From: FCB group bacterium
Lineage (GTDB): Bacteria; Fidelibacterota; Marinisomatia; Marinisomatales; JAADGP01
Assembly (NCBI GenBank): GCA_013152315.1
Contig: JAADGP010000120.1
Span: 1 to 36,551, forward strand
Length of the DNA: 36,551 bases
Reading direction: 5' to 3'
Position numbers and translations under genes: made by a program. Below, one piece after another: positions 21,193 to 35,685 of the stretch (its first letter is position 1; each line of letters starts with the position of its first letter). Below the pieces are notes generated by a model. The model was not told the DNA's origin, made no database searches, and saw only the letters and a program-made list of their open reading frames with translations.

Positions 21193-21353
21193 AAATAATT
21201 GACGTGTGACTTGTGCATCAGCCGGAAAGCATGATGTCCGGCAATCGTCGGAAAAAAACAGGTTGCTGATTTTTACCAGGCGTAAAAATGTTTGTAACCC
21301 CGGTAAAAAGTGTATTAACTTCCCGCCACGAGATTCAGGCGAATAAAAACATA

Positions 21354-21416
21354 ATGAATTGCAAAAGAAAAAATTGTTGTTGTATGGTGGACTCAAGAGG
21401 ACTTGTGCCGGTGTAG
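21354..21416 (+). CDS. Cysteine leader peptide 1 (MNCKRKNCCCMVDSRGLVPV*)
   Basis: 20-codon ORF: ATG AAT TGC AAA AGA AAA AAT TGT TGT TGT ATG ... CTT GTG CCG GTG TAG; followed by an intrinsic terminator; same design repeated 187 nt downstream. Confidence 0.82.
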   Translation: MNCKRKNCCCMVDSRGLVPV

Positions 21417-21477
21417 AGGTATATAGAAATACAATTACAAAGAACCCTTTCATCAGCACAAGTGAAAGGGTTTTTTA
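21402..21477 (+). promoter_or_regulatory. Attenuator 1: antiterminator 21402-21413 with 21451-21462, mutually constraining with terminator 21443-21472
   Basis: cttgtgccggtg pairs with catcagcacaag (one mismatch, one G-U). Terminator stem AACCCTTTCA/TGAAAGGGTT (10 bp) followed by a T-run. Confidence 0.78.
21443..21477 (+). terminator. Intrinsic terminator 1 of the cys leader
   Basis: aaccctttca-tcagcacaag-tgaaagggtt then tttta; 10-bp perfect stem. Confidence 0.85.
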
Positions 21478-21540
21478 TTAAAGATATCGAATCAAAAGCG
21501 AAAAAAGAAAAATAATATAGTGCGAAACAAGCGTAAAAAT

Positions 21541-21603
21541 ATGATTAACGGAAATGCCGGTTGTTGTTGTATGATGAAAGCAAGGGGACTTGTGCTGGTG
21601 TAG
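21541..21603 (+). CDS. Cysteine leader peptide 2 (MINGNAGCCCMMKARGLVLV*)
   Basis: 20-codon ORF: ATG ATT AAC GGA AAT GCC GGT TGT TGT TGT ATG ATG ... CTT GTG CTG GTG TAG; Cys triplet in the same codon register (8-10) as leader 1. Confidence 0.82.
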   Translation: MINGNAGCCCMMKARGLVLV

Positions 21604-21665
21604 CCGTACAATCAAATTTCAATCAGTCAAGCCCCTTCACCAGCACAAATGAAGGGGCTTTTTTA
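21590..21665 (+). promoter_or_regulatory. Attenuator 2: antiterminator 21590-21600 with 21638-21648, mutually constraining with terminator 21629-21660
   Basis: ttgtgctggtg is a perfect 11-nt complement of caccagcacaa; terminator stem AAGCCCCTTCA/TGAAGGGGCTT. Confidence 0.78.
21629..21665 (+). terminator. Intrinsic terminator 2 of the cys leader
   Basis: aagccccttca-ccagcacaaa-tgaaggggctt followed by tttt; 11-bp perfect stem. Confidence 0.88.
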
Positions 21666-21676
21666 TAAAGAAATAA

Positions 21677-23272
21677 GTGAAAAAGAAGATGGATACGAAC
21701 AATAAGACTCAAAAAACGAAGATAGACGTAGAAGCATTAAGAAAGGGCGGGGTGGTAAAGCTGAAGGACCCCGATATGTATTCGGTATGGATAAAAACCG
21801 CGTGCTGTAACCTGAATTCCGAACAATTGATTAAAATCGCGGACATTACCGATAAATACGCCCGGGGTTATCTTTTATTCAGTACCAGACAGATCCCGAT
21901 TATTCCTCATATTCATTTGAATGATGTTGAACAGGTTAAGGAAGAGCTGAGCCGGGTTTATCTGGAATTGGATCGGTGCGGACCGCGCGTGAGAAATATT
22001 AACGTTTGCTACAGCAATACGATATGTCCCGACGCGATTACCGACTCCATATCCCTGGCTGAAAAACTTGAGAATTATTTTCGTGACCCGATTCTCCACA
22101 AGATAAAGATCGGTGTGGCCGGTTGTAAGAAGGACTGCATCATATCCCGGGTACTGAACGATATCAGCTTTGTCGGTGTGGAGCAAGATGGCCGGCAGGG
22201 TTATTACGACGTGTACGTTGGTGGGAAATTGGGATTAAATCCCTTCGTAGGGGTGAAAATGGCAAGTCGGATATCGGAAGAAGAAGCGGTACGATTTGTT
22301 AATAACTACTTCGAATTGATGCGCAATGAAGGGAAAAAGGGAGAAAGGGGTTCGCACCTGATTAAAAGGCTTGGAGTGGAATACGTGAAGCAGGTCCTGA
22401 ACACGGATTTGCAGCAACGTCCGCCTGTCGAGCCGGTTCCCTGCGCCACCAAGACGAATGAGGTCGCCACCAATAAGATGATTCTGAAGATTCGTGCCAC
22501 GTGTGGAGAAATAACATCGAACCAGTTAAGGGAGATTGCCGACATTTCCGAAAAGTACGGCCATGGATTTGTTCATTTCGCGGTACGGGGCGCGCCTGAG
22601 ATTCCCTATGTGGATACGCAATATCTGGAAATCATCCGGGAAAGATTGGCTATTGTCGGTCTGCAGATACTGGACAGGGGAATAGATAATCTGCAATCCT
22701 GCTTCGGCGAATATTGTACCGAAAGCAACGCCCACACGCAACCTCTGCTGCGGAAAGTCGAACGGCTGGTGGAGGACCTGGGTCTGAACAATCTGAACAT
22801 CAAAATATCGGGGTCCGGCTGCCCGAATTCCTGCGGGATTTCCCATATTAACGACATCGGCTATATTGGTGTGGCAAAACCGGCTGTGAATGAGAGTGAG
22901 TGTGTTGGTTGCGAACTCTGTCTGGATGTGTGTAAACGGGAAGCCATCGACATGGTCGCCGATATTGCCGTGATCAATGAAGACAAATGCCGTCATTGCG
23001 GTCAATGTATAGCGGTTTGCCCCTTTGAAGCGATACTGGAAGAACAGAAAGGTTTCTCCATATTGGTGGGGGGCAAAGAAGGTGAGGACACGCGACTGGG
23101 AGAAGTGATTGCCGAATTCCTGACGGATGAGGAAACACTGGAAGTTACCGAAAGATGCTTGCGCATTGTAAAGGACCGGGGCGTGAATGTTGCCACCCTC
23201 CTGGATGAAATCGGCATTGAGGGCTTAAAGGAAATGATTCTACCCAGTGAACAATTCGTGTATTGTGATTAA
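21677..23272 (+). CDS. Siroheme-dependent nitrite/sulfite reductase with two siroheme/[4Fe-4S] repeats and a 2x[4Fe-4S] ferredoxin domain
   Basis: Repeat 1 'CYSNTIC...GCKKDC' (CX5C..CX3C); repeat 2 'CFGEYC...GCPNSC'; then 'CVGCELCLDVCKREA...CRHCGQCIAVCPFEA'. GTG (21677) or ATG (21689) start. Confidence 0.85.
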   Translation: MKKKMDTNNKTQKTKIDVEALRKGGVVKLKDPDMYSVWIKTACCNLNSEQLIKIADITDKYARGYLLFSTRQIPIIPHIHLNDVEQVKEELSRVYLELDRCGPRVRNINVCYSNTICPDAITDSISLAEKLENYFRDPILHKIKIGVAGCKKDCIISRVLNDISFVGVEQDGRQGYYDVYVGGKLGLNPFVGVKMASRISEEEAVRFVNNYFELMRNEGKKGERGSHLIKRLGVEYVKQVLNTDLQQRPPVEPVPCATKTNEVATNKMILKIRATCGEITSNQLREIADISEKYGHGFVHFAVRGAPEIPYVDTQYLEIIRERLAIVGLQILDRGIDNLQSCFGEYCTESNAHTQPLLRKVERLVEDLGLNNLNIKISGSGCPNSCGISHINDIGYIGVAKPAVNESECVGCELCLDVCKREAIDMVADIAVINEDKCRHCGQCIAVCPFEAILEEQKGFSILVGGKEGEDTRLGEVIAEFLTDEETLEVTERCLRIVKDRGVNVATLLDEIGIEGLKEMILPSEQFVYCD

Positions 23273-23295: not shown

Positions 23296-24021
23296 GTGGA
23301 AGAAAAAATTAAACGCGCGAAAGAGTTAATTGAGTCGGCGATAACGACCTACGATAACGTTGCGGTAGCCTGCTCTTTCGGAAAAGACAGCATGGTTACT
23401 CTCCATCTGGCCAGGGAAGTGGATCCGGAGATCGAAGTTTTTGCGGTAATGACGGTATATAAACCAAGGGTAACCTACCTGTATCTCAGATTGATGAATT
23501 CAAAATGGAATCTGAATACAACCGTTTACATCGTGGCCGATCATATTCCGGAAGCTCTGCGGGATGACGCTTTAAATGTGGTATTGCTACCGGTGGAAGA
23601 GTTTGCCAGTCGTTCCTTACAGATCAAAGCTCAAACAGGGAAAGAAATTTATGAAGCGGATCCGGATGAATGTTGCCGGTTATTGAAAGTCGACCCCACC
23701 AAATTAGCCGTTAGCAAATTGGACGCCTGGATTTGCGGGTTGAGAAATACGGAAGGGCGAACCAGGAAAGATTACCGGGAGATCGAGAGCAAGGGTGGCC
23801 TTGTTAAAATAAATCCGATATTAACTTTCACGGAAGCCGAGATTTGGCGATATATCTCAACCCGAGGAATCGACCCCCATCCCTGGTATGGATTGGGCTA
23901 CAGGTCTCTTGGTTGTGAGACTTGCTCGCACATCGGTGGTGAGCTTGAAAGAGACGGACGCTGGATAAATACGAGTAAGTGCGGCGGCGAATGCGGTATC
24001 CACACACAAATATTAAAATAG
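23296..24021 (+). CDS. cysH: APS/PAPS reductase (CysH family, Fe-S type)
   Basis: 'ACSFGKDSMVTLHLA' PP-loop, 'ECCRLLKVDPTK' and 'GCETCS' Cys pairs, C-terminal 'GECGIHTQ'. GTG start. Confidence 0.88.
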   Translation: MEEKIKRAKELIESAITTYDNVAVACSFGKDSMVTLHLAREVDPEIEVFAVMTVYKPRVTYLYLRLMNSKWNLNTTVYIVADHIPEALRDDALNVVLLPVEEFASRSLQIKAQTGKEIYEADPDECCRLLKVDPTKLAVSKLDAWICGLRNTEGRTRKDYREIESKGGLVKINPILTFTEAEIWRYISTRGIDPHPWYGLGYRSLGCETCSHIGGELERDGRWINTSKCGGECGIHTQILK

Positions 24022-24036: not shown

Positions 24037-25242
24037 ATGGGACAAAATAACAAAAAGATAGAATTTGATCATCAATTGAGGGTTTATTCCAATATTATCC
24101 AACTGATTGCCAATTCGGATAATCCGACACCGCTGGTAAAGTTAAACCGGATAAACCCCAACAGCGACTTTGATATCTTCCTTAAACTGGAACGATATAA
24201 TCCTTTCGGTTCGATTAAGGATCGGATTGCCTATGAAATGTTAAGCGCTCTGGAAATCGGTGACAAAACCGTTGTGGAACCGTCTTCGGGGAATACCGGA
24301 ATCGCCCTGGTCAGTATTGCCAATGCTCTGGGAATACCGATCGAAATTGCCGTTCCGGAAGGGATTCCCGAAGAGAAAAAGGTGATGTTGAATTTTATGG
24401 GCGCCAAAGTCAACGAAGCCGATGATGAACTGTGCCCCTTATTTCCGTCCGAAGGCGCCCGGGGATTGGTAAACGCCCTCGTTAACAGTCCGGCTACAAG
24501 AGATAAATACATCAGCCCGAATCAATACGAAAATGAATTAAATGTCCAGGCCCATTATCGTACCACGGGACCGGAGATATGGAAACAAACGGGAGGGAAA
24601 ATTGATTATTTCTTTGCCGGATTTGGTACCTGCGGGACAATAACCGGAGTCGGGAAATACTTGAAGGAGAAGAATCCGAATATTAAGATCATTGGCATTG
24701 AACCGGCTTCTCTAAACCATAAATTACCGGGAATGAAGAGGATTACCGGGCTATCGGAAGATCTGGTACCCAAGATACTTGATAAATCGGTAATTGACGA
24801 TATCGTCGAGGTTAAGGATAATGATGCCTTTAAGACGGCTTTGAATCTCGCACGGAAAGATGGGGTGCTTGTTGGCCCTACTACCGGTGCCATTCTATAC
24901 GCGGCTTTGCAGTATGCGAAATCAAATAAAGGATTGTCCGTTGTGATCTCACCGGACGACGCGTTCAAATATGCCAGTTTCTACAAAGAAGTAATGGAAA
25001 CGATACAAGATGAACCCACGGTGAAAGAATATGATTTGAGCGACTATGTTTGCCCCATATCGAAAATAAAATCACTGGAGATAATTAATGAGTTAAATAC
25101 CGGTGAGACCATTAAAATCAAGTTGGGCGATATTGATTCTCTCAAAAATGTCATCAAGGAAGTGAAGACCCGGGGTTTCAAGCCCGGCATAGACCGGAAA
25201 CCCGACGATGGGTTCATCTTAACAATCGCAAACGAAGGTTGA
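24037..25242 (+). CDS. Cysteine synthase-like PLP enzyme with C-terminal TusA/SirA-like domain
   Basis: 'NPFGSIKDRIAYEML' PLP lysine region, 'EPSSGNTGIALVSIANALG' and 'GFGTCGTITGVGKYLKEK'; C-terminal ~65 aa 'VCPISKIKSLEIINELNTGETIKIKLGD...' resembles TusA. Confidence 0.85.
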   Translation: MGQNNKKIEFDHQLRVYSNIIQLIANSDNPTPLVKLNRINPNSDFDIFLKLERYNPFGSIKDRIAYEMLSALEIGDKTVVEPSSGNTGIALVSIANALGIPIEIAVPEGIPEEKKVMLNFMGAKVNEADDELCPLFPSEGARGLVNALVNSPATRDKYISPNQYENELNVQAHYRTTGPEIWKQTGGKIDYFFAGFGTCGTITGVGKYLKEKNPNIKIIGIEPASLNHKLPGMKRITGLSEDLVPKILDKSVIDDIVEVKDNDAFKTALNLARKDGVLVGPTTGAILYAALQYAKSNKGLSVVISPDDAFKYASFYKEVMETIQDEPTVKEYDLSDYVCPISKIKSLEIINELNTGETIKIKLGDIDSLKNVIKEVKTRGFKPGIDRKPDDGFILTIANEG

Positions 25243-26042: not shown

Positions 26043-27593
26043 ATGGTAACCCGTTATAAACACTTACAGCGCGAAGTAAAGGAATTGTCTCTGTTGTTCG
26101 AAATAAGCCAGACTTTAAATCGGAGTAAAAATATAAAAGAGATTGTAAGACCGGTATTGAAAGTGGTTGCTGAGCACATGGGTTTGTCGCGAGCGGCCTT
26201 GACTATTTTGAATCGCACAACCAATGAGATATTTATCGAAGATGCTTACGGTCTTTCCGTGGAGGAGCGTGCCCGGGGACGGTACAAGGTCGGTGAAGGA
26301 ATAACCGGTAAGGTTGTCGCTTCGGGCCGTCCCATGATCATACCGAAAATTTCCGAGGAACCGCAATTTCTCGATCGGACCGAAGCCCGGAAGAACCTCA
26401 ATAAAAGTGATATTTCATTTATTTGTGTCCCTATAAAGTTATCGGGTGAGGTGATTGGCGCTTTCAGCGTTGATCGGTTATTCGATGACAGTTTCTCCCT
26501 GGAAGATGACGTGCGTTTGCTTTCCATCATCGCCTCGATGATCGCCCAATCGGTGCGGGTTTACCAATCCCTCCAGGAGGAACGGTTGTATCTCCAGGAA
26601 GAGAATCAGCGCTTACAGAATGAAGTTAAGGACGTGTTCCGGCCGGCCAATATTATCGGTAATGCCAAACGCATGAAGGAGATGTACGCCCTTATCGAGC
26701 GGGTCTCTTCGACGGACACCACCGTGTTCATATATGGAGAAAGTGGAGTCGGCAAGGAATTGGTTGCCGCCGCTATTCATTACAACAGTAACCGGGCGGA
26801 TAAGCCATTCATAAAAGTCAATTGCGCCGCTTTTCCCGACAGCCTCGTGGAAAGTGAACTCTTTGGGCACGAGAAAGGATCCTTTACGGGAGCCGTTGCC
26901 ACCCGCAAGGGTCGGTTCGAATCGGCAAACGGGGGAACGCTTTTGCTGGATGAAATAGGCGATCTGTCGTTGGTTACACAGGTGAAACTATTGCGCGTGC
27001 TCCAGGAAAAGGAATTCGAACGGATCGGCAGCAACACCACTATTAAAACCGACGTGCGCATTATCGCGGCCACAAACCGTGATATTGAGGAGTTGATATC
27101 AAAAAGACTGTTTCGCCAGGATTTGTTCTATCGTCTCAATGTTTTTCCCATCCATGTACCGCCTTTAAGGCAGCGTAAATCCGACATTATGTTGTTGGCC
27201 GATCATTTTGTGGAAAAATACAGCAAAAAACTGGGACATCGCGTAAAACGAATCACCACATCCGCCATTGACATGATGATGTCTTACCATTGGCCCGGAA
27301 ACGTTCGTGAACTTGAAAATGCCATGGAAAGGGCCGTGCTGCTCAGTACCGATGGTGTAATTCACGCCTATCACATGCCGCCCAGCCTGCAGACGGCTGA
27401 AACCAGTGGAACAGTATGCCGGAGCACACTGGCGACAATTCTGTCGAATGTGGAACGGGATTTAATCATCGATGCTTTAAAATCCACAAAAGGGAACATG
27501 TCAAAGGCCACCAAGATTCTGGGTATAAGTGAACGAATAATGGGATTACGGGTAAAAAAATACGGAATAAATCCGAAGAATTATCGCGATTAG
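26043..27593 (+). CDS. nifA: Nif-specific sigma54-dependent transcriptional activator
   Basis: N-terminal GAF domain, AAA+ 'GESGVGKELVAAAIHY' and 'ELFGHEKGSFTGAVA' (GAFTGA-equivalent), Fis-type HTH 'KATKILGISERIMGLRVKKYGINPKNYR'; immediately upstream of nifH. Confidence 0.9.
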   Translation: MVTRYKHLQREVKELSLLFEISQTLNRSKNIKEIVRPVLKVVAEHMGLSRAALTILNRTTNEIFIEDAYGLSVEERARGRYKVGEGITGKVVASGRPMIIPKISEEPQFLDRTEARKNLNKSDISFICVPIKLSGEVIGAFSVDRLFDDSFSLEDDVRLLSIIASMIAQSVRVYQSLQEERLYLQEENQRLQNEVKDVFRPANIIGNAKRMKEMYALIERVSSTDTTVFIYGESGVGKELVAAAIHYNSNRADKPFIKVNCAAFPDSLVESELFGHEKGSFTGAVATRKGRFESANGGTLLLDEIGDLSLVTQVKLLRVLQEKEFERIGSNTTIKTDVRIIAATNRDIEELISKRLFRQDLFYRLNVFPIHVPPLRQRKSDIMLLADHFVEKYSKKLGHRVKRITTSAIDMMMSYHWPGNVRELENAMERAVLLSTDGVIHAYHMPPSLQTAETSGTVCRSTLATILSNVERDLIIDALKSTKGNMSKATKILGISERIMGLRVKKYGINPKNYRD

Positions 27594-27644
27594 ACAGACT
27601 GGCCTCATATCCACTCTGATTAAATGGGGCATAAATCAATGATT

Positions 27645-27674
27645 ACGTGGGATCAGAAGATCCCGCGTTTGTTT
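27645..27674 (+). terminator. Probable intrinsic terminator after nifA
   Basis: acgtgggatc-agaa-gatcccgcgt (27645-27654/27659-27668, one G-U) followed by ttgttt. Confidence 0.6.
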
Positions 27675-28090
27675 ACCCGATTGTCGTTAGGTTTTTTTAA
27701 TCACTATACTGGTTATATGGGTTACAAATGCATGGCAAGCCAGGCCCAGGCTATGTCCCGTTAAGCCCTCTTTTACAATAGTTAATATAGACATATAATG
27801 TTGAGGTCCTGCATTATCTTCCCGTTATTATTCTGTACCCTTGTGCTTTTCCTCCTTACCCCTCCGAAAGATAACAATTTATCTTTCCCTACATTTTTGT
27901 AATTCTCCCCATGTATTGGTCTGTAAACACAACATTATTGTAGGATTCTTTCAGCGAAAGAAAGGCCGGTAACAAACTTTCCTCCCGGAGTGGACTGAAA
28001 AATAATAAAAATTGTTGCACGCATAACCTGTTGGATATCTGTTTGTTATGAGTACCTGTGATTCGGATGGAGAAAATTGGCGTCATGAAT

Positions 28091-28105
28091 TGGCCCGTTT
28101 ATTGC
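28091..28105 (+). promoter_or_regulatory. Putative sigma54 (-24/-12) promoter of nifH
   Basis: TGGCCCGTTTATTGC: GG-N10-GC spacing and close match to TGGCACG-N4-TTGC, about 97 nt upstream of the nifH ATG. Confidence 0.8.
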
Positions 28106-28186
28106 CAATCGGTACTAACGTAACAGTTATACGAAATGATAAAAATATGAGTTTAATCGATCGGTAGTAAACGATAAAAAAAATAG

Positions 28187-29023
<837 letters not shown>

Positions 29024-29077
29024 TCCTTTCGGTAAAGTTGGTGCTCGTAATTTTTCAATAAAAACAGAGGATAAGTC

Positions 29078-29425
29078 ATGTTAATGATCAGATCAATTGT
29101 CAGGACGGAAAAGGCCGATGCGGTGCTTGCCGGACTTTTGGAAGCGGGATATCCTGCCGTAACAAGAATTTCCGTATATGGGCGTGGGAAACAGCGAGGT
29201 TTGAAAGTCGGGAGTGTTACCTATGATGAACTTCCCAAGGAATTGCTTCTCACGGTAATAAAAGAGAAAGATAAGGATTTCGTGGTCAAAACGATTATCG
29301 AGGCGGCGAAAACAGGGGATATGGGAGCTTATGGTGAGACGGGAAAATTTTCGTTTCTCCCGTACTCGAGGCCTATACTATCAGTTCCGGTGTTAAAGAA
29401 GTATCAACCAAGGAGTGAACCGTGA
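29078..29425 (+). CDS. nifI1: Nitrogenase-associated PII protein NifI1, apparently frameshifted near its C-terminus
   Basis: 'MLMIRSIVRTEKADAVLAGLLEAGYPAVTRISVYGRGKQRGLKVGSVTYDELPK' PII; after 'GAYG' the canonical DGKIFVSPVLEAYTISSGVKEVSTKE* lies in another frame ending at 29418. Confidence 0.9.
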   Translation: MLMIRSIVRTEKADAVLAGLLEAGYPAVTRISVYGRGKQRGLKVGSVTYDELPKELLLTVIKEKDKDFVVKTIIEAAKTGDMGAYGETGKFSFLPYSRPILSVPVLKKYQPRSEP

Positions 29426-29829
29426 AAGAAGTTATGGCAATGATTCGCATTAACCGGATAAATGCGACTAAAAGGGCGCTTAATGAGGTTGGAATAACCT
29501 CTTTTACAGCTACCGGGAAGGTTCTTGGACGCGGAAAAGGATTGGTTGATTTCCGGATCCTTGAAGGCGCCAAGGAAGGACGCCAAGAGGCAATTTCCTT
29601 ATTGGGAGATGGTCCCCGACTCGTACCTAAAAGACTCATAACGGTAATTGTCTCGGACAATTTTGTCGAAAGGACGGTAAAGGCGATCATTAAGGCAAAC
29701 CACACCGGGAATGCCGGTGACGGAAAAATATTTGTTTTGCCCATTCTGGAGGCCACGCGCGTCAGGACGGGAGAAACCGTAAGAGGGGAATCGGGAGGAA
29801 CCGTTCTTGATTCTTCAGGAGGACTATAA
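29422..29829 (+). CDS. nifI2: Nitrogenase-associated PII protein NifI2
   Basis: GTG start; PII fold with extended T-loop region and intact 'GNAGDGKIFVLPILEATRVRTGE' C-terminus; located between nifI1 and nifD. Confidence 0.93.
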   Translation: MKEVMAMIRINRINATKRALNEVGITSFTATGKVLGRGKGLVDFRILEGAKEGRQEAISLLGDGPRLVPKRLITVIVSDNFVERTVKAIIKANHTGNAGDGKIFVLPILEATRVRTGETVRGESGGTVLDSSGGL

Positions 29830-29831
29830 TA

Positions 29832-31454
29832 ATGGAACACAATATCCCAAAACCACCAACCGCGATAAAGGAGGAAATCCTTTCAAAGTATCCGCCGAAA
29901 GTCGCGCGGAAAAGAAATAAATCCATTGTTATCAGGGATCCGGAGGACGAACAGAAAATCCAGGCGAACGTCCGAACTATTCCCGGAATTATTACACAAC
30001 GCGGATGTGCTTATGCCGGTTGCAAAGGAGTGGTCCTCGGTCCCACCAGGGACATCATAAACATTACCCACGGACCGATTGGTTGCGGTTTTTACAGTTG
30101 GCTGACAAGAAGAAATCAAACCAAACCCGAAGGCGCCGAAGGTGAGAATTATATGACCTACTGTTTTTCGACGGATATGCAGGACTCAAATATCGTTTTC
30201 GGCGGCGAAAAGAAACTGAGGGAGGCTATTCAGGAAGCCTACGATCTCTTTAAGCCCAAGGCAATCAGTGTTTTTTCTACCTGTCCCGTCGGTTTGATCG
30301 GAGATGACGTCCACGCGATTGCCAAGGAAATGAAAAAGAAACTGGGAATTAATGTTTTTGCATTCAGTTGTGAGGGGTATAAAGGGGTAAGCCAGTCCGC
30401 CGGTCACCACATCGCCAACAACGGTCTCTTCAAACACGTAGTGGGTCTCGATGATACGGTAAGGGAAGGTGATTTCAAGATCAATATGCTTGGTGAATAC
30501 AATATCGGCGGCGACGCGTTTGAACTGGAACGTATTCTTGAGTTGGCGGGGTTTACGCTGATTTCCACCTTCAGCGGGAACTCGGATATGGGCCGCTTCG
30601 CGAATTCACACACAGCGGATCTTAACGTGATCATGTGTCACCGGTCCATCAATTACATGGCCGAGATGATGGAAACGAAATTCGGGATTCCCTGGTTGAA
30701 GGTGAATTTTACCGGCGCGAAAGCCACGGCAAAATCCCTGCGAAAAATGGCCCAGTATTTCGGTGATAAAAAACTTATTAACCGGGTGGAGAAACTTATC
30801 AGGAATGAAATGGCGGCGGTAAACAAGGTTTTAAGCGAAACGAGACCGCGGTGCGAAGGGAAACTGGCCATGCTCTTCGTCGGTGGCTCACGGGCCCATC
30901 ATTACCAGGAGCTGTTTAATGAACTGGGAATGAAAACGGTTTGCGCCGGCTATGAATTCGGCCACCGCGATGATTATGAGGGCCGTGATGTTCTGCCCGA
31001 CATAAAAATCGACGCCGACAGTCGCAATATTGAAGAGCTGTTTGTCGAAAAGGATGAAAAACGATATCGTCCCCGGAAAACTTCAGAAGAAATCCTGGAG
31101 CTCAAGAAAAAGGGCCTCGAAATTGGCGAATATAATGGATTAATGGCGGAGATGAGTAAACAGTCGCTTGTTGTGGATGATATTACCCATTATGAAACGG
31201 AAAAATTAATTGAATTCTACAAGCCGCACATATTCTGTGCCGGAATCAAGGAAAAATATGTTGTGCAGAAAATGGGTGTCCCTTTGAAACAGTTGCACAG
31301 TTACGATTATGGCGGGCCCTATGCCGGATTCCGGGGGGCGATCAATTTCTACCAGGAAATTGATCGTATGGTCAATACCCGCATTTGGGATTTGATAACA
31401 CCTCCCTGGGAAAAGAATGGGGCGGAAATCACGGCTGAATTTGTCTCTTTGTAG
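29832..31454 (+). CDS. nifD: Nitrogenase molybdenum-iron protein alpha chain
   Basis: P-cluster Cys motifs 'RGCAYAGCKG', 'GPIGCGFYSW', 'STCPVGLIGDD'; 'SQSAGHHIAN'; cofactor Cys 'IMCHRSINY' and His 'LHSYDYGGPYAGF'. Confidence 0.97.
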   Translation: MEHNIPKPPTAIKEEILSKYPPKVARKRNKSIVIRDPEDEQKIQANVRTIPGIITQRGCAYAGCKGVVLGPTRDIINITHGPIGCGFYSWLTRRNQTKPEGAEGENYMTYCFSTDMQDSNIVFGGEKKLREAIQEAYDLFKPKAISVFSTCPVGLIGDDVHAIAKEMKKKLGINVFAFSCEGYKGVSQSAGHHIANNGLFKHVVGLDDTVREGDFKINMLGEYNIGGDAFELERILELAGFTLISTFSGNSDMGRFANSHTADLNVIMCHRSINYMAEMMETKFGIPWLKVNFTGAKATAKSLRKMAQYFGDKKLINRVEKLIRNEMAAVNKVLSETRPRCEGKLAMLFVGGSRAHHYQELFNELGMKTVCAGYEFGHRDDYEGRDVLPDIKIDADSRNIEELFVEKDEKRYRPRKTSEEILELKKKGLEIGEYNGLMAEMSKQSLVVDDITHYETEKLIEFYKPHIFCAGIKEKYVVQKMGVPLKQLHSYDYGGPYAGFRGAINFYQEIDRMVNTRIWDLITPPWEKNGAEITAEFVSL

Positions 31455-31478
31455 ACCTTTTCAATAAAGGAGAAATTA

Positions 31479-32861
31479 ATGCTTTTACGACATACACCTT
31501 CTGAAATTAAAGAAAGAAATGCGCTTACAATAAATCCTGCCAAGACTTGCCAGCCGATTGGAGCGATGTATGCCGCGCTGGGAATCCATGGTTGTTTGCC
31601 ACACAGCCATGGTTCCCAGGGCTGTTGTGCCTACCATAGAAGTACCCTTACCCGACACTTTAAAGAGCCCGTCATGGCCGCCACCAGTTCCTTTACGGAA
31701 GGGGCCTCGGTGTTTGGAGGACAGGCCAACCTGCTCCAGGCCATTAACAACATGTTTACCGTGTATACTCCCGAAGTGATTGCGGTTCATACCACGTGCC
31801 TTTCGGAAACAATTGGGGATGACATAAACCAAATTATCCGCAAGGCCTATGAAGATGGAAAAGTTCCGGAAGGAAAGCATGTGATTCACTGCAACACTCC
31901 CAGTTATGTAGGCTCGCATGTTACCGGCTATGCGAATATGGTGGCCGGAATGGTGAAATATTTTTCCGAATCAACAGGGAGGTACCGTGATCAGATTAAT
32001 ATTATTCCGGGGTGGATCGAGCCGTCGGATATGAGGGAAATAAAAAGAATCGCCAAGGAGATGGGTGTGAAAATCATTCTTTTTCCCGATACCTCCGATG
32101 TCCTGGACGCTCCTCAAAAGGGGAAACACATGTTTTATCCCGAGGGGGGTGTTACGATACCGGATCTGAGAAGTACGGGAGACAGCAAACTGACAATTGC
32201 GCTCGGGCCCTTCGGCACCGAAAGCGCAGCCGCCTTGTTGGATACCAAATGCAAAGTGAAATATGAATTGCTCGATCTCCCCATCGGGATTTCCGCTACG
32301 GACAGATTTATCAGCGGTTTGAGCCGGGCAGCCTGTGTGGAAGTACCGGTATCGATTACCGCCGAAAGGGGAAGGGCGGTCGATATTATTACCGATATGC
32401 AACAATACTTCTATAATAAAAAGGTTGCCTTGTTCGGCGATCCGGACCAACTGATGGCGCTTACCGAATTCCTGGTGGACCTTGAAATGAAACCCATCCA
32501 TATTATTAGTGGTACGCCCGGTAAACAGTTTGTGCCAAGGATCAGAAACATCCTGAAAGACAAGGTCCCCAATGCAAATGTCAGGAATGGTGCAAATGCC
32601 GATCTATTTCTGCTGCACCAGCTCATTAAGAACGAACCCGTGGACCTTCTCGTCGGCAATACCTACGGTAAATATATCGCCAGGGACGAGGATATTCCTT
32701 TTGTGCGAATGGGATTCCCGATTCTGGACAGGATTGGTCATAGTTATTTCCCAACGGTCGGCTATTCCGGCGCGATGCGTTTACTGGAAACGATCTTGTC
32801 CGCCCTGATGGACCGGCAGGACAGGGATGCTCCGGAAGAAAGTTTCGAACTTGTGATGTAA
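31479..32861 (+). CDS. nifK: Nitrogenase molybdenum-iron protein beta chain
   Basis: 'CQPIGAMYAALGIHGCLPHSHGSQGCCAYHR' and 'TTCLSETIGDDI'. Confidence 0.97.
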   Translation: MLLRHTPSEIKERNALTINPAKTCQPIGAMYAALGIHGCLPHSHGSQGCCAYHRSTLTRHFKEPVMAATSSFTEGASVFGGQANLLQAINNMFTVYTPEVIAVHTTCLSETIGDDINQIIRKAYEDGKVPEGKHVIHCNTPSYVGSHVTGYANMVAGMVKYFSESTGRYRDQINIIPGWIEPSDMREIKRIAKEMGVKIILFPDTSDVLDAPQKGKHMFYPEGGVTIPDLRSTGDSKLTIALGPFGTESAAALLDTKCKVKYELLDLPIGISATDRFISGLSRAACVEVPVSITAERGRAVDIITDMQQYFYNKKVALFGDPDQLMALTEFLVDLEMKPIHIISGTPGKQFVPRIRNILKDKVPNANVRNGANADLFLLHQLIKNEPVDLLVGNTYGKYIARDEDIPFVRMGFPILDRIGHSYFPTVGYSGAMRLLETILSALMDRQDRDAPEESFELVM

Positions 32862-32987
32862 CCTCATTGCTGGTTCAATCCGGTTATGTATTCATGAGAA
32901 ATTTAATGAAACGAAATAAGGCCATGGAACCTCGGGGACATCGCTGGTATCCATGGAACTCCAATACTCTTTGGAATATGAGCGAGT

Positions 32988-34355
32988 GTGAAAATGGTTA
33001 AAGTATTGGCACAGCGTGAAAAGCAGGTTTTTCGCAAGGGCGAAGACACGTTCAACATCGGTTGTGAACGCAATAGCGTTGCCGGATCCGTGAGCCAACG
33101 GGCTTGCGTGTTTTGCGGATCACGGGTAGTGCTTTACCCGATTGCCGATGCCTTGCATCTTATTCATGGACCGATCGGATGTGCTGCTTACACCTGGGAC
33201 ATCCGGGGTGCTCTTTCGTCCGGACCGAAACTCCACAGATTGAGTTTTTCGACGGATATTCAGGAGAAAAACGTTATCTACGGCGGTGAAAAAAAACTGT
33301 ACAATTCCCTTATTGAATTAATCGACATCTACCATCCCAAAGCAGCGTTCGTGTATGCCACCTGCATAGTGGGGATTATCGGCGATGATGTCGACGCGGT
33401 TTGTAAACGGGTTGCCGGTGAAAAAGGGATTCCGGTACTGCCTGTTCATTCCGAGGGCTTTAAGGGGACTAAAAAAGACGGTTACAGGGCTGCCTGTGAA
33501 GCGCTCCTGAAAATCATCGGCCGCGAAGCGACCGACAAAGTCCCCGAATTCAGCATCAATATTCTTGGTGACTTCAACATTGCCGGGGAAACGTGGGTTA
33601 TTCGGGATTATTACCGCCGGATGGGCGTTGAAGTGGTTTCCGTCATGACCGGAGATGGTAGGGTGGCGGATATCGGCCGTTCACATGGGGCTTCGTTAAA
33701 TGTAATCCAATGTTCCGGTTCCATGATGTATCTGGCGAAAAAGATGAAGGAAAAGTATGGTATCCCTTATATCCGTGTTTCCTATTTCGGGATTGAAGAT
33801 ACCTCGGAGGCGCTCTTTGCCGTGGCTCGTTTTTTTAACGACACGGAAATTCTGGAACGCACCGGCCTGCTTGTCGAATCGGAAGTTGAACGGGTTAATC
33901 GGCAAATACAACGTTATCGGAAAAAACTGAAAGGCCGGAAAGCCACGATTTATGTCGGGGGCGCGTTCAAGGCCTTTTCTCTGATCAAGGCCTTACATTT
34001 ACTGGGTATGGAGGTAGCCGTTGTCGGGTCTCAGACCGGCAACATCGACGACTACACGCGACTTAAGGACATGTGCCTCCCGGGTACGATTATTCTCGAC
34101 GATTCCAATCCGGTTGAACTGGCGAATTTTTCACTCGAGAAGGAAGTGGATTTGTTTATCGGAGGTGTTAAGGAAAGACCCCTGGCTTACAAACTGGGGA
34201 TAGGCTTTTGTGATCACAACCATGAGCGAAAACAAATATTGGCCGGTTACGAAGGAATGGTGAATTTTGCAAAAGAGGTTTATTCCTCGGTGATGAGTCC
34301 TGTTTGGAGGTTTTCTCCACGAAAGACAGGGAGAATGGCAAATGATATCGGCTGA
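32988..34355 (+). CDS. nifE: Nitrogenase FeMo-cofactor scaffold protein NifE
   Basis: NifD paralogue with 'RACVFCGSRVVL', 'GPIGCAAYTWDIRGA', 'ATCIVGIIGDDV'; downstream of nifK. Confidence 0.94.
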   Translation: MKMVKVLAQREKQVFRKGEDTFNIGCERNSVAGSVSQRACVFCGSRVVLYPIADALHLIHGPIGCAAYTWDIRGALSSGPKLHRLSFSTDIQEKNVIYGGEKKLYNSLIELIDIYHPKAAFVYATCIVGIIGDDVDAVCKRVAGEKGIPVLPVHSEGFKGTKKDGYRAACEALLKIIGREATDKVPEFSINILGDFNIAGETWVIRDYYRRMGVEVVSVMTGDGRVADIGRSHGASLNVIQCSGSMMYLAKKMKEKYGIPYIRVSYFGIEDTSEALFAVARFFNDTEILERTGLLVESEVERVNRQIQRYRKKLKGRKATIYVGGAFKAFSLIKALHLLGMEVAVVGSQTGNIDDYTRLKDMCLPGTIILDDSNPVELANFSLEKEVDLFIGGVKERPLAYKLGIGFCDHNHERKQILAGYEGMVNFAKEVYSSVMSPVWRFSPRKTGRMANDIG

Positions 34356-35685
34356 GAAAAACTTTACGGCCACAACCAATCCCTGCAAGTTGTGCGCTCC
34401 TTTGGGAGCCTCCCTGGTATTTAAGGGTGTGCGGGATGCGTTGTGCCTTCTGCACGGTTCACAGGGATGCGCGACCTATATCCGAAGATATCTTATCAGC
34501 CATTTCAGGGAGCCGGTCGATATTGCTTCATCGAGTTTTGCGGAGGCCGCTGCCGTTTTCGGCGGTGGCGATAACCTTAAAAAAGCTTTAATGAATGTTG
34601 GCAGTCAGTACCACCCTGAAATTATTGGTGTCGCCACCACTTGTCTCAGCGAAACCATCGGGGATAATGTGCCGATGTATATAAGCGAATTCAAAAAGGC
34701 GAATGCCGGAACGGATTTACCGGAGATTATTCATGTCTCCACACCAAGTTACCGGGGGACACACATGGATGGATTTTATGAATCCGTAAAGGCCTTGGTA
34801 AAGTCATTGGCGCGCGGGGGCGACCGTACCGATCGGATTGCCCTGTTTCCCGGTTTTGTTTCACCCGCGGATATGCGTTATCTGAAAGAAATTTTTTCCG
34901 ATTTTGGTTTGCCCTGGGTGATGCTTCCCGATTATTCGGAAACATTGGACGGTCCCTTGTGGAAAGAATATCAAAGAATCCCAAAGGGAGGAACAACCTA
35001 TGATGAGATTGTTTCCCTGGGATGCTCACAGGCAACCATCGAATTTGGGCACACCCTGAAAACGGGCGGGAGTGCCGGTGAGAAGTATTCCGTGCCGCGG
35101 TATACCCTTGGAATGCCGATCGGCATAACCCTCAGTGATGAATTTTTCAGTGTATTGGGACAATTGAGCGGGAAAGAAATGCCGGCGAAATATGGGGAGG
35201 AACGCGGAAGACTCATTGATGCTTATGCCGATGCCCACAAATATATTTTCGAAAAAAAAGCAATTGTATTCGGCGAGGAGGACCTGGTCATAGCAATGAC
35301 ATCGTTCCTGCTTGAAATCGGTGTCGTCCCGGTGCTCTGTGCTTCCGGTTCCAAAAGCGGCACCATGAAAAAAACGATATCGGAAATGGGAGCCGGCTAC
35401 GGACGATCGATTTCGGTCCGTGAAGGCGCCGACTTTGCCGATATTTTGGATGAAGCAAGAATTTTGCGTCCCGATTTCATGGTGGGGAACAGCAAAGGCT
35501 ACGCAATAGCCCGTGAATTAGATATTCCCCTGGTTCGTATCGGCTTTCCGGTACACGATCGCATTGGCGGGGGGCGGTTATTGCATTTGGGATATCGGGG
35601 CAGCCAGGAACTTTTTGATCGTATCGTCAACACCATTATCGAGTGTACCCAGGCAAAATCGCCCGTGGGACATTCGTATATGTAA
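34342..35685 (+). CDS. nifN: Nitrogenase FeMo-cofactor scaffold protein NifN
   Basis: NifK paralogue with 'NPCKLCAPLGASLVFKGV', 'HGSQGCATYIRRYLISHFREP', 'TTCLSETIGDN'; overlaps nifE end. Confidence 0.94.
   Translation: MISAEKNFTATTNPCKLCAPLGASLVFKGVRDALCLLHGSQGCATYIRRYLISHFREPVDIASSSFAEAAAVFGGGDNLKKALMNVGSQYHPEIIGVATTCLSETIGDNVPMYISEFKKANAGTDLPEIIHVSTPSYRGTHMDGFYESVKALVKSLARGGDRTDRIALFPGFVSPADMRYLKEIFSDFGLPWVMLPDYSETLDGPLWKEYQRIPKGGTTYDEIVSLGCSQATIEFGHTLKTGGSAGEKYSVPRYTLGMPIGITLSDEFFSVLGQLSGKEMPAKYGEERGRLIDAYADAHKYIFEKKAIVFGEEDLVIAMTSFLLEIGVVPVLCASGSKSGTMKKTISEMGAGYGRSISVREGADFADILDEARILRPDFMVGNSKGYAIARELDIPLVRIGFPVHDRIGGGRLLHLGYRGSQELFDRIVNTIIECTQAKSPVGHSYM

Follow-up and report, generated by a model that had tools for sequence, protein, structure and literature searches.

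Putative cysteine leader-peptide attenuators arranged in series upstream of a sulfite reductase operon in Candidatus Neomarinimicrobiota

The locus

The window analysed here is a stretch of 36,551 nucleotides from an FCB group bacterium (contig JAADGP010000120.1). It carries two complete modules, at 21354-21476 and 21541-21665, upstream of a sulfur-assimilation operon. Each module consists of a 20-codon leader ORF with the run Cys-Cys-Cys, a predicted antiterminator arm in the final codons of this ORF and an intrinsic terminator with its U-tract. The features of the region are as follows.

21292-21323, plus strand: candidate promoter, TTG (21292-21294), 21 nt, TAACTTCC (21316-21323), 5' of both modules
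21354-21416, plus strand: leader ORF 1, MNCKRKNCCCMVDSRGLVPV and stop; Cys codons at 21360-21362 and 21375-21383
21401-21413, plus strand: predicted antiterminator arm of module 1, ACTTGTGCCGGTG, within the last codons of ORF1; pairs with 21451-21463
21439-21476, plus strand: terminator 1, hairpin 21439-21453 / 21462-21476 with U-tract
21541-21603, plus strand: leader ORF 2, MINGNAGCCCMMKARGLVLV and stop; Cys codons at 21562-21570
21588-21603, plus strand: predicted antiterminator arm of module 2, ACTTGTGCTGGTGTAG; pairs with 21635-21648
21629-21665, plus strand: terminator 2, hairpin 21629-21639 / 21650-21660 and U-tract
21677-23272, plus strand: sulfite reductase, 531 aa, with NIR_SIR domains and a 4Fe-4S ferredoxin domain (Pfam, NCBIfam)
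23296-24021, plus strand: phosphoadenylyl-sulfate reductase, CysH-like (Pfam, NCBIfam; PRK02090 above its cut-off)
24037-25242, plus strand: cysteine-synthase-like PLP enzyme with a C-terminal TusA-like domain (below NCBIfam cut-offs)

The original prediction described a whole module that recurs about 187 nt apart with its layout kept. Both modules are found where they had been placed: a direct repeat of 57 nt with 79% identity has a start-to-start spacing of exactly 187, and the modules are 69% identical across a core of 109 nt. In both modules, 11 codons separate the last Cys codon from the stop codon, with about 24 nt more to the beginning of the hairpin. The duplex between arm and terminator reaches -18.2 kcal/mol in module 1 and -20.5 kcal/mol in module 2, where AAGGGG, immediately 5' of the arm, offers an alternative pairing with CCCCTT in the 5' arm of terminator 2. 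Terminator 1 folds with -17.7 kcal/mol (shuffles mean -4.9, z -5.8) and terminator 2 (21629-21660 plus the U-run) with -17.5 kcal/mol (shuffles mean -6.7, z -5.0), and none of 200 shuffles was as stable in either case. A simple terminator scanner called none in this region, although folding shows both hairpins. We see no clear Shine-Dalgarno sequence in front of ORF2, and take its translation as an assumption.

Three marks of an attenuator can be read directly from the locus: leader ORFs rich in codons for the product amino acid (Cys3 in both), an intrinsic terminator after the leader ORF and ahead of the first gene, and regulated genes that make the sensed amino acid, as the operon covers sulfite reduction and cysteine synthesis. 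The anatomy of leader, antiterminator and terminator, twice and with cysteine as the signal, stands as it was predicted, and the related genomes described below strengthen it.

Two further observations concern the neighbouring genes. The fusion of a cysteine-synthase-like enzyme with a C-terminal TusA-like domain at 24037-25242 is unusual; the TusA-like match lies just under the Pfam cut-off. Just 3' of the cysteine operon, at 26043-35685, the window carries a molybdenum nitrogenase cluster (nifH, two small ORFs, nifD, nifK, nifE and a nifN/nifK-like gene) with a NifA-like activator. A nifD model search of 247 genomes of the phylum gave matches only in the genome of the window and in its one same-genus relative, and in both nif-bearing genomes the cluster shares a contig with the sulfite reductase operon.

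A family of modules across the phylum

We searched the 247 genomes of Candidatus Neomarinimicrobiota with two covariance models, R2 built from eight modules and a broader R3. R3 served for candidate finding only, and the matches of both models were then inspected individually. The strict filters of these scans lose weak matches, and all counts of modules, loci and genomes are lower bounds. We found at least 28 intact modules, distributed over 23 loci and 14 genomes, and all 28 intact modules inspected contain runs of Cys codons.

The 531-aa sulfite reductase is present in four of the 247 genomes, namely that of the window (G000), G001 (leader L033), G088 (L036) and G180 (L035). In all four, two Cys leader ORFs with terminators precede the gene. 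A fifth tandem, in G179, precedes a different sulfite reductase of 765 aa in another family. Counting modules in related genomes had been named beforehand as a check, and it came out for the tandem, in four of four orthologous leaders and additionally in G179. In G179 (L072, G179:C36, 1034-1582) a divergent cysM with a single module and the sulfite reductase with the tandem share one common intergenic region.

The single-module loci, at least 18, all precede cysteine or sulfur genes.

7 loci: before 750-780-aa sulfite reductases (G001, G153, G154, G155, G156, G157, G167)
8 loci: before cysM-type cysteine synthases (G153, G154, G155, G156, G158, G167, G179, G183)
1 locus: before cysD-N (G167)
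1 locus: before a DUF4395 gene plus cysE (G184)
1 locus: before a DsrE-like gene (G155)

In G167 the cysM-type gene is followed by genes for a JAB-domain protein and a MoeB/MoeZ-like protein. The downstream genes of L071, L074, L075, L076, L085 and L098 were run against a family library; for the remaining genes, the assignment follows a clear resemblance to this set or agreement with it in size and gene order. Matches of R2 or R3 that have no poly-Cys leader ORF were dropped (L054, L056-L062, L100, L101 and L103). At L102 (G200:C1 near 58596-58715, minus strand) a Met/Cys-rich leader ORF, MGIMMCLMCMYSS, with a terminator lies upstream of a threonine-synthase-like gene and a MoeB-like gene, and is perhaps an attenuator of another kind.

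Since single modules stand before many cysteine and sulfur genes, we take the module to be the unit of a predicted cysteine attenuation regulon in Neomarinimicrobiota. The tandem is a variant of this module, so far at sulfite reductase genes only (at least five tandem loci).

A proposed single promoter for two serial modules

In the four orthologous leaders the motif TTG-N21-TAnnTTTg precedes module 1 and has no counterpart before module 2. The end of its -7 box lies exactly 30 nt from ORF1 in all four, and the candidate promoter block is 86% conserved between the window and L033. Over 24 leaders a spacer of 21 gave a mean score of 7.6 out of 9 versus at most 6.6 for the other spacers from 14 to 29, a post hoc comparison for a motif first recognised by eye. 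Second modules score 4-7, and the full pattern occurs in none of them. The motif resembles the -33/-7 promoters of Bacteroidota. Scoring for E. coli-type sigma-70 promoters did not separate first from second modules, and a promoter scan of the window returned two unrelated matches. The tandem of G179 has no recognisable promoter motif before module 1; there, about 10 nt lie between the first U-tract and the second ATG, so that a promoter in this gap would need to span terminator 1.

A distance of 3-6 nt from the end of the -7 box to the chosen start codon recurs in 18 of the 24 leaders and suggests leaderless mRNA for the single-module leader ORFs. Single-module leaders with this distance are L071, L075-L086 and L097-L099.

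If the main transcript came from a promoter between the modules, regulation would be left to module 2, and module 1 would be a remnant or a terminator of transcripts from further upstream. In this gap L033 has a weak sigma-70-like match (TTGGAT-19-CATAAT) and L035 a better one (TTGACA-19-TAAAAT), but neither the window nor L036 has a comparable match between its modules. With the conserved motif on the far side of module 1 in four of four leaders, the narrow gap in G179 and an ORF1 as conserved as ORF2, we consider this reading quite improbable. The motif before first modules only, together with the near lack of room in G179, favours a single promoter followed by two serial decisions. The original prediction that RNA polymerase passes both terminators to reach the sulfite reductase gene is in line with these results, as the four leaders share no promoter motif between their modules.

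Conservation of the first module

The leader L033 comes from a Candidatus Neomarinimicrobiota MAG, the closest named relative, whose sulfite reductase is 92% identical to that of the window. Between the two leaders the functional parts are highly conserved (ORF1 90%, terminator 1 92%, ORF2 92%, terminator 2 100%), and the other parts less so (5'UTR 70%, spacer 1 73%, between the modules 76%).

These values bear on the idea that chance has preserved module 1 as a duplicate in decay, and that its terminator lowers expression without sensing cysteine. Decay does occur in the phylum: a relic resembling module 1 in G016 (L073, G016:C143, 1116-1221, minus strand) has a broken, frameshifted leader frame and a damaged, mismatched terminator, and our sulfite reductase search of the 247 genomes did not find the 531-aa enzyme in G016. 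In four of four orthologous leaders, however, module 1 has kept its Cys codons, its arm and its terminator intact, and ORF1 and terminator 1 are conserved well above the spacers, which makes chance retention very improbable.

The unrooted tree of the sulfite reductases shows three well separated lineages and is compatible with the tandem arising once or twice. Likewise, the tree of the modules fits one old duplication or two independent ones. The two modules of the window resemble each other (69%) more than any module of L035 or L036 (54-65%), a pattern that independent duplication and concerted change would explain equally well. A related sulfite reductase (65% identical) in a MAG labelled Planctomycetota (L034) has a single Cys-attenuator at 918-1051, with a very strong duplex of arm and terminator (-26.5 kcal/mol).

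Computed switching

The geometry of the modules is nearly constant across the phylum, with 8-12 codons from the last Cys to the stop and 17-26 nt from the stop to the hairpin. In an alignment of 25 modules, five terminator pairs show double changes (24 cells), a value that none of 500 shuffles equalled. For the antiterminator, 89% of the positions are paired in eight modules versus at most 47% when the arm is slid, and four pairs have changed on both sides; with eight related sequences only, 49 and 66 of 500 shuffles reach the observed values. Because 49 shuffles reach the observed percentage, we regard this covariation as moderate evidence for a pairing of the arm.

Duplexes of an arm with its cognate terminator have a mean of -15.3 kcal/mol versus -11.0 kcal/mol for non-cognate ones, a difference of 4.3 in which related modules are counted repeatedly. 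In simulations of co-transcriptional folding that placed a ribosome at the last Cys codon, 23 of 26 modules had the 5' arm or loop of the terminator bound by the antiterminator arm, and in these the pairing preceded the appearance of the terminator 3' arm. Tested module by module against shuffled arms, some modules show a clear excess and others none (median P 0.16). The masking of the arm by a ribosome at the stop codon follows by construction from the position of the arm. The further mark of an attenuator, an exclusive antiterminator that is exposed by stalling and masked at the stop, is therefore one obtained by computation. At equilibrium the complete terminator is more stable than the antiterminator in both modules of the window, and the switch must therefore be kinetic.

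That the terminators answer another signal, for instance a protein or a metabolite that binds to the leader, while the Cys-rich peptide acts elsewhere, has a precedent in the trans-acting leader peptide peTrpL (PMC7298713), but it is highly improbable here, as conservation of the peptide across loci is confined to the Cys run, whose spacing from the stop codon is kept along with the pairing of arm and terminator, and an Rfam scan of the window gave no match to any family.

Discussion

Overall, our data very probably reflect ribosome-mediated transcription attenuation by the charging of Cys-tRNA, acting twice in series on one transcript. With cysteine plentiful, the ribosome would pass the three Cys codons, reach the stop codon and cover the antiterminator arm, so that the terminator forms and RNA polymerase stops. 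A polymerase that escapes terminator 1 would meet the same test about 187 nt downstream. When cysteine is short, the ribosome would stall on the Cys codons; the arm in the last codons, left uncovered, would then capture the 5' arm and loop of the terminator as it emerges, and RNA polymerase would continue. The sulfite reductase operon would be made only once both modules are read through. Ribosome stalling, termination in vivo and multiplied tightness are what we infer from this architecture; that termination probabilities multiply and that the response becomes steeper and less leaky are arithmetic expectations.

Strict independence of the two modules should not be assumed, because pairing of the leader 1 arm with terminator 2 is nearly as strong as with its own terminator (for example -16.6 versus -18.2 kcal/mol in the window). 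This cross-pairing might reflect the shared origin of the modules, or it might truly couple them. A cooperative switch, in which the first decision biases the second through this pairing, seems unlikely to us; if it were true, the response would depart from the simple product of two termination probabilities.

The modules share with the attenuators of the trp, his, leu and ilv operons a leader ORF with regulatory codons, an antiterminator that is alternative to an intrinsic terminator, and an operon that makes the sensed amino acid. They differ in reading cysteine, in belonging to Neomarinimicrobiota, in standing as two copies in series and in having the partner of the antiterminator largely in the terminator loop. 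Peptide-leader attenuation is usually a single leaky switch, and tandem riboswitches and tandem T-boxes are known.

Leader ORFs with Cys codons have been described in other bacteria. In Rhodobacterales, the motif uORFC-8-2 combines such an ORF with an intrinsic terminator before cysS (PMC8632094). It differs from our modules in being single, in its alphaproteobacterial hosts, in having two adjacent Cys codons and in its position before the cysteinyl-tRNA synthetase gene, where other genes lie downstream here. In Actinobacteria, attenuation was proposed for polycysteine leader ORFs before cys operons (PMC1262725). Both groups of leaders have their Cys codons in runs close to the stop and are associated with cysteine operons, whereas no conserved terminators were reported there and intrinsic terminators belong to the modules here. 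The mycobacterial cysteine leader ORFs are leaderless according to Canestrari 2020, as cited in PMC13236596, as the single-module loci here probably are too; those of M. smegmatis are described as translational attenuation in work cited there.

Serial arrangements are also on record. The leader of Salmonella mgtCBR contains two peptide-leader attenuators in one mRNA, responding to two different signals, ATP and proline (PMC3641672), whereas here the same signal would be read twice, at two separate intrinsic terminators. Serial terminators in one leader are likewise found in the tandem riboswitches of B. clausii metE, as cited in PMC3641672, and in the rimP leader (PMC2965389), but these depend on a ligand-binding RNA or an unknown signal and not on peptide leaders reading tRNA charging. 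Our literature search, which lay mostly outside subscription journals, found no same-signal tandem of peptide-leader attenuators and no report of a cysteine attenuation regulon in the largely uncultured phylum Neomarinimicrobiota. This agrees with the original view that a tandem cysteine peptide-leader attenuator is unusual. Cysteine leader-peptide attenuators as such are already known; the serial tandem for one signal would be a new form.

The findings extend to Neomarinimicrobiota a putative cysteine attenuation regulon with canonical intrinsic terminators and, at most loci, apparently leaderless leader ORFs. Moreover, they indicate that two peptide-leader attenuators with one and the same input can be placed one behind the other, like riboswitches and T-boxes, and that the stacked form is conserved. 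The conserved doubling suggests that tight on/off control may have been built through duplication of an RNA switch. With single and double forms before sulfite reductase genes, this one phylum offers a natural comparison for whether serial placement would sharpen the response or lower its leak.
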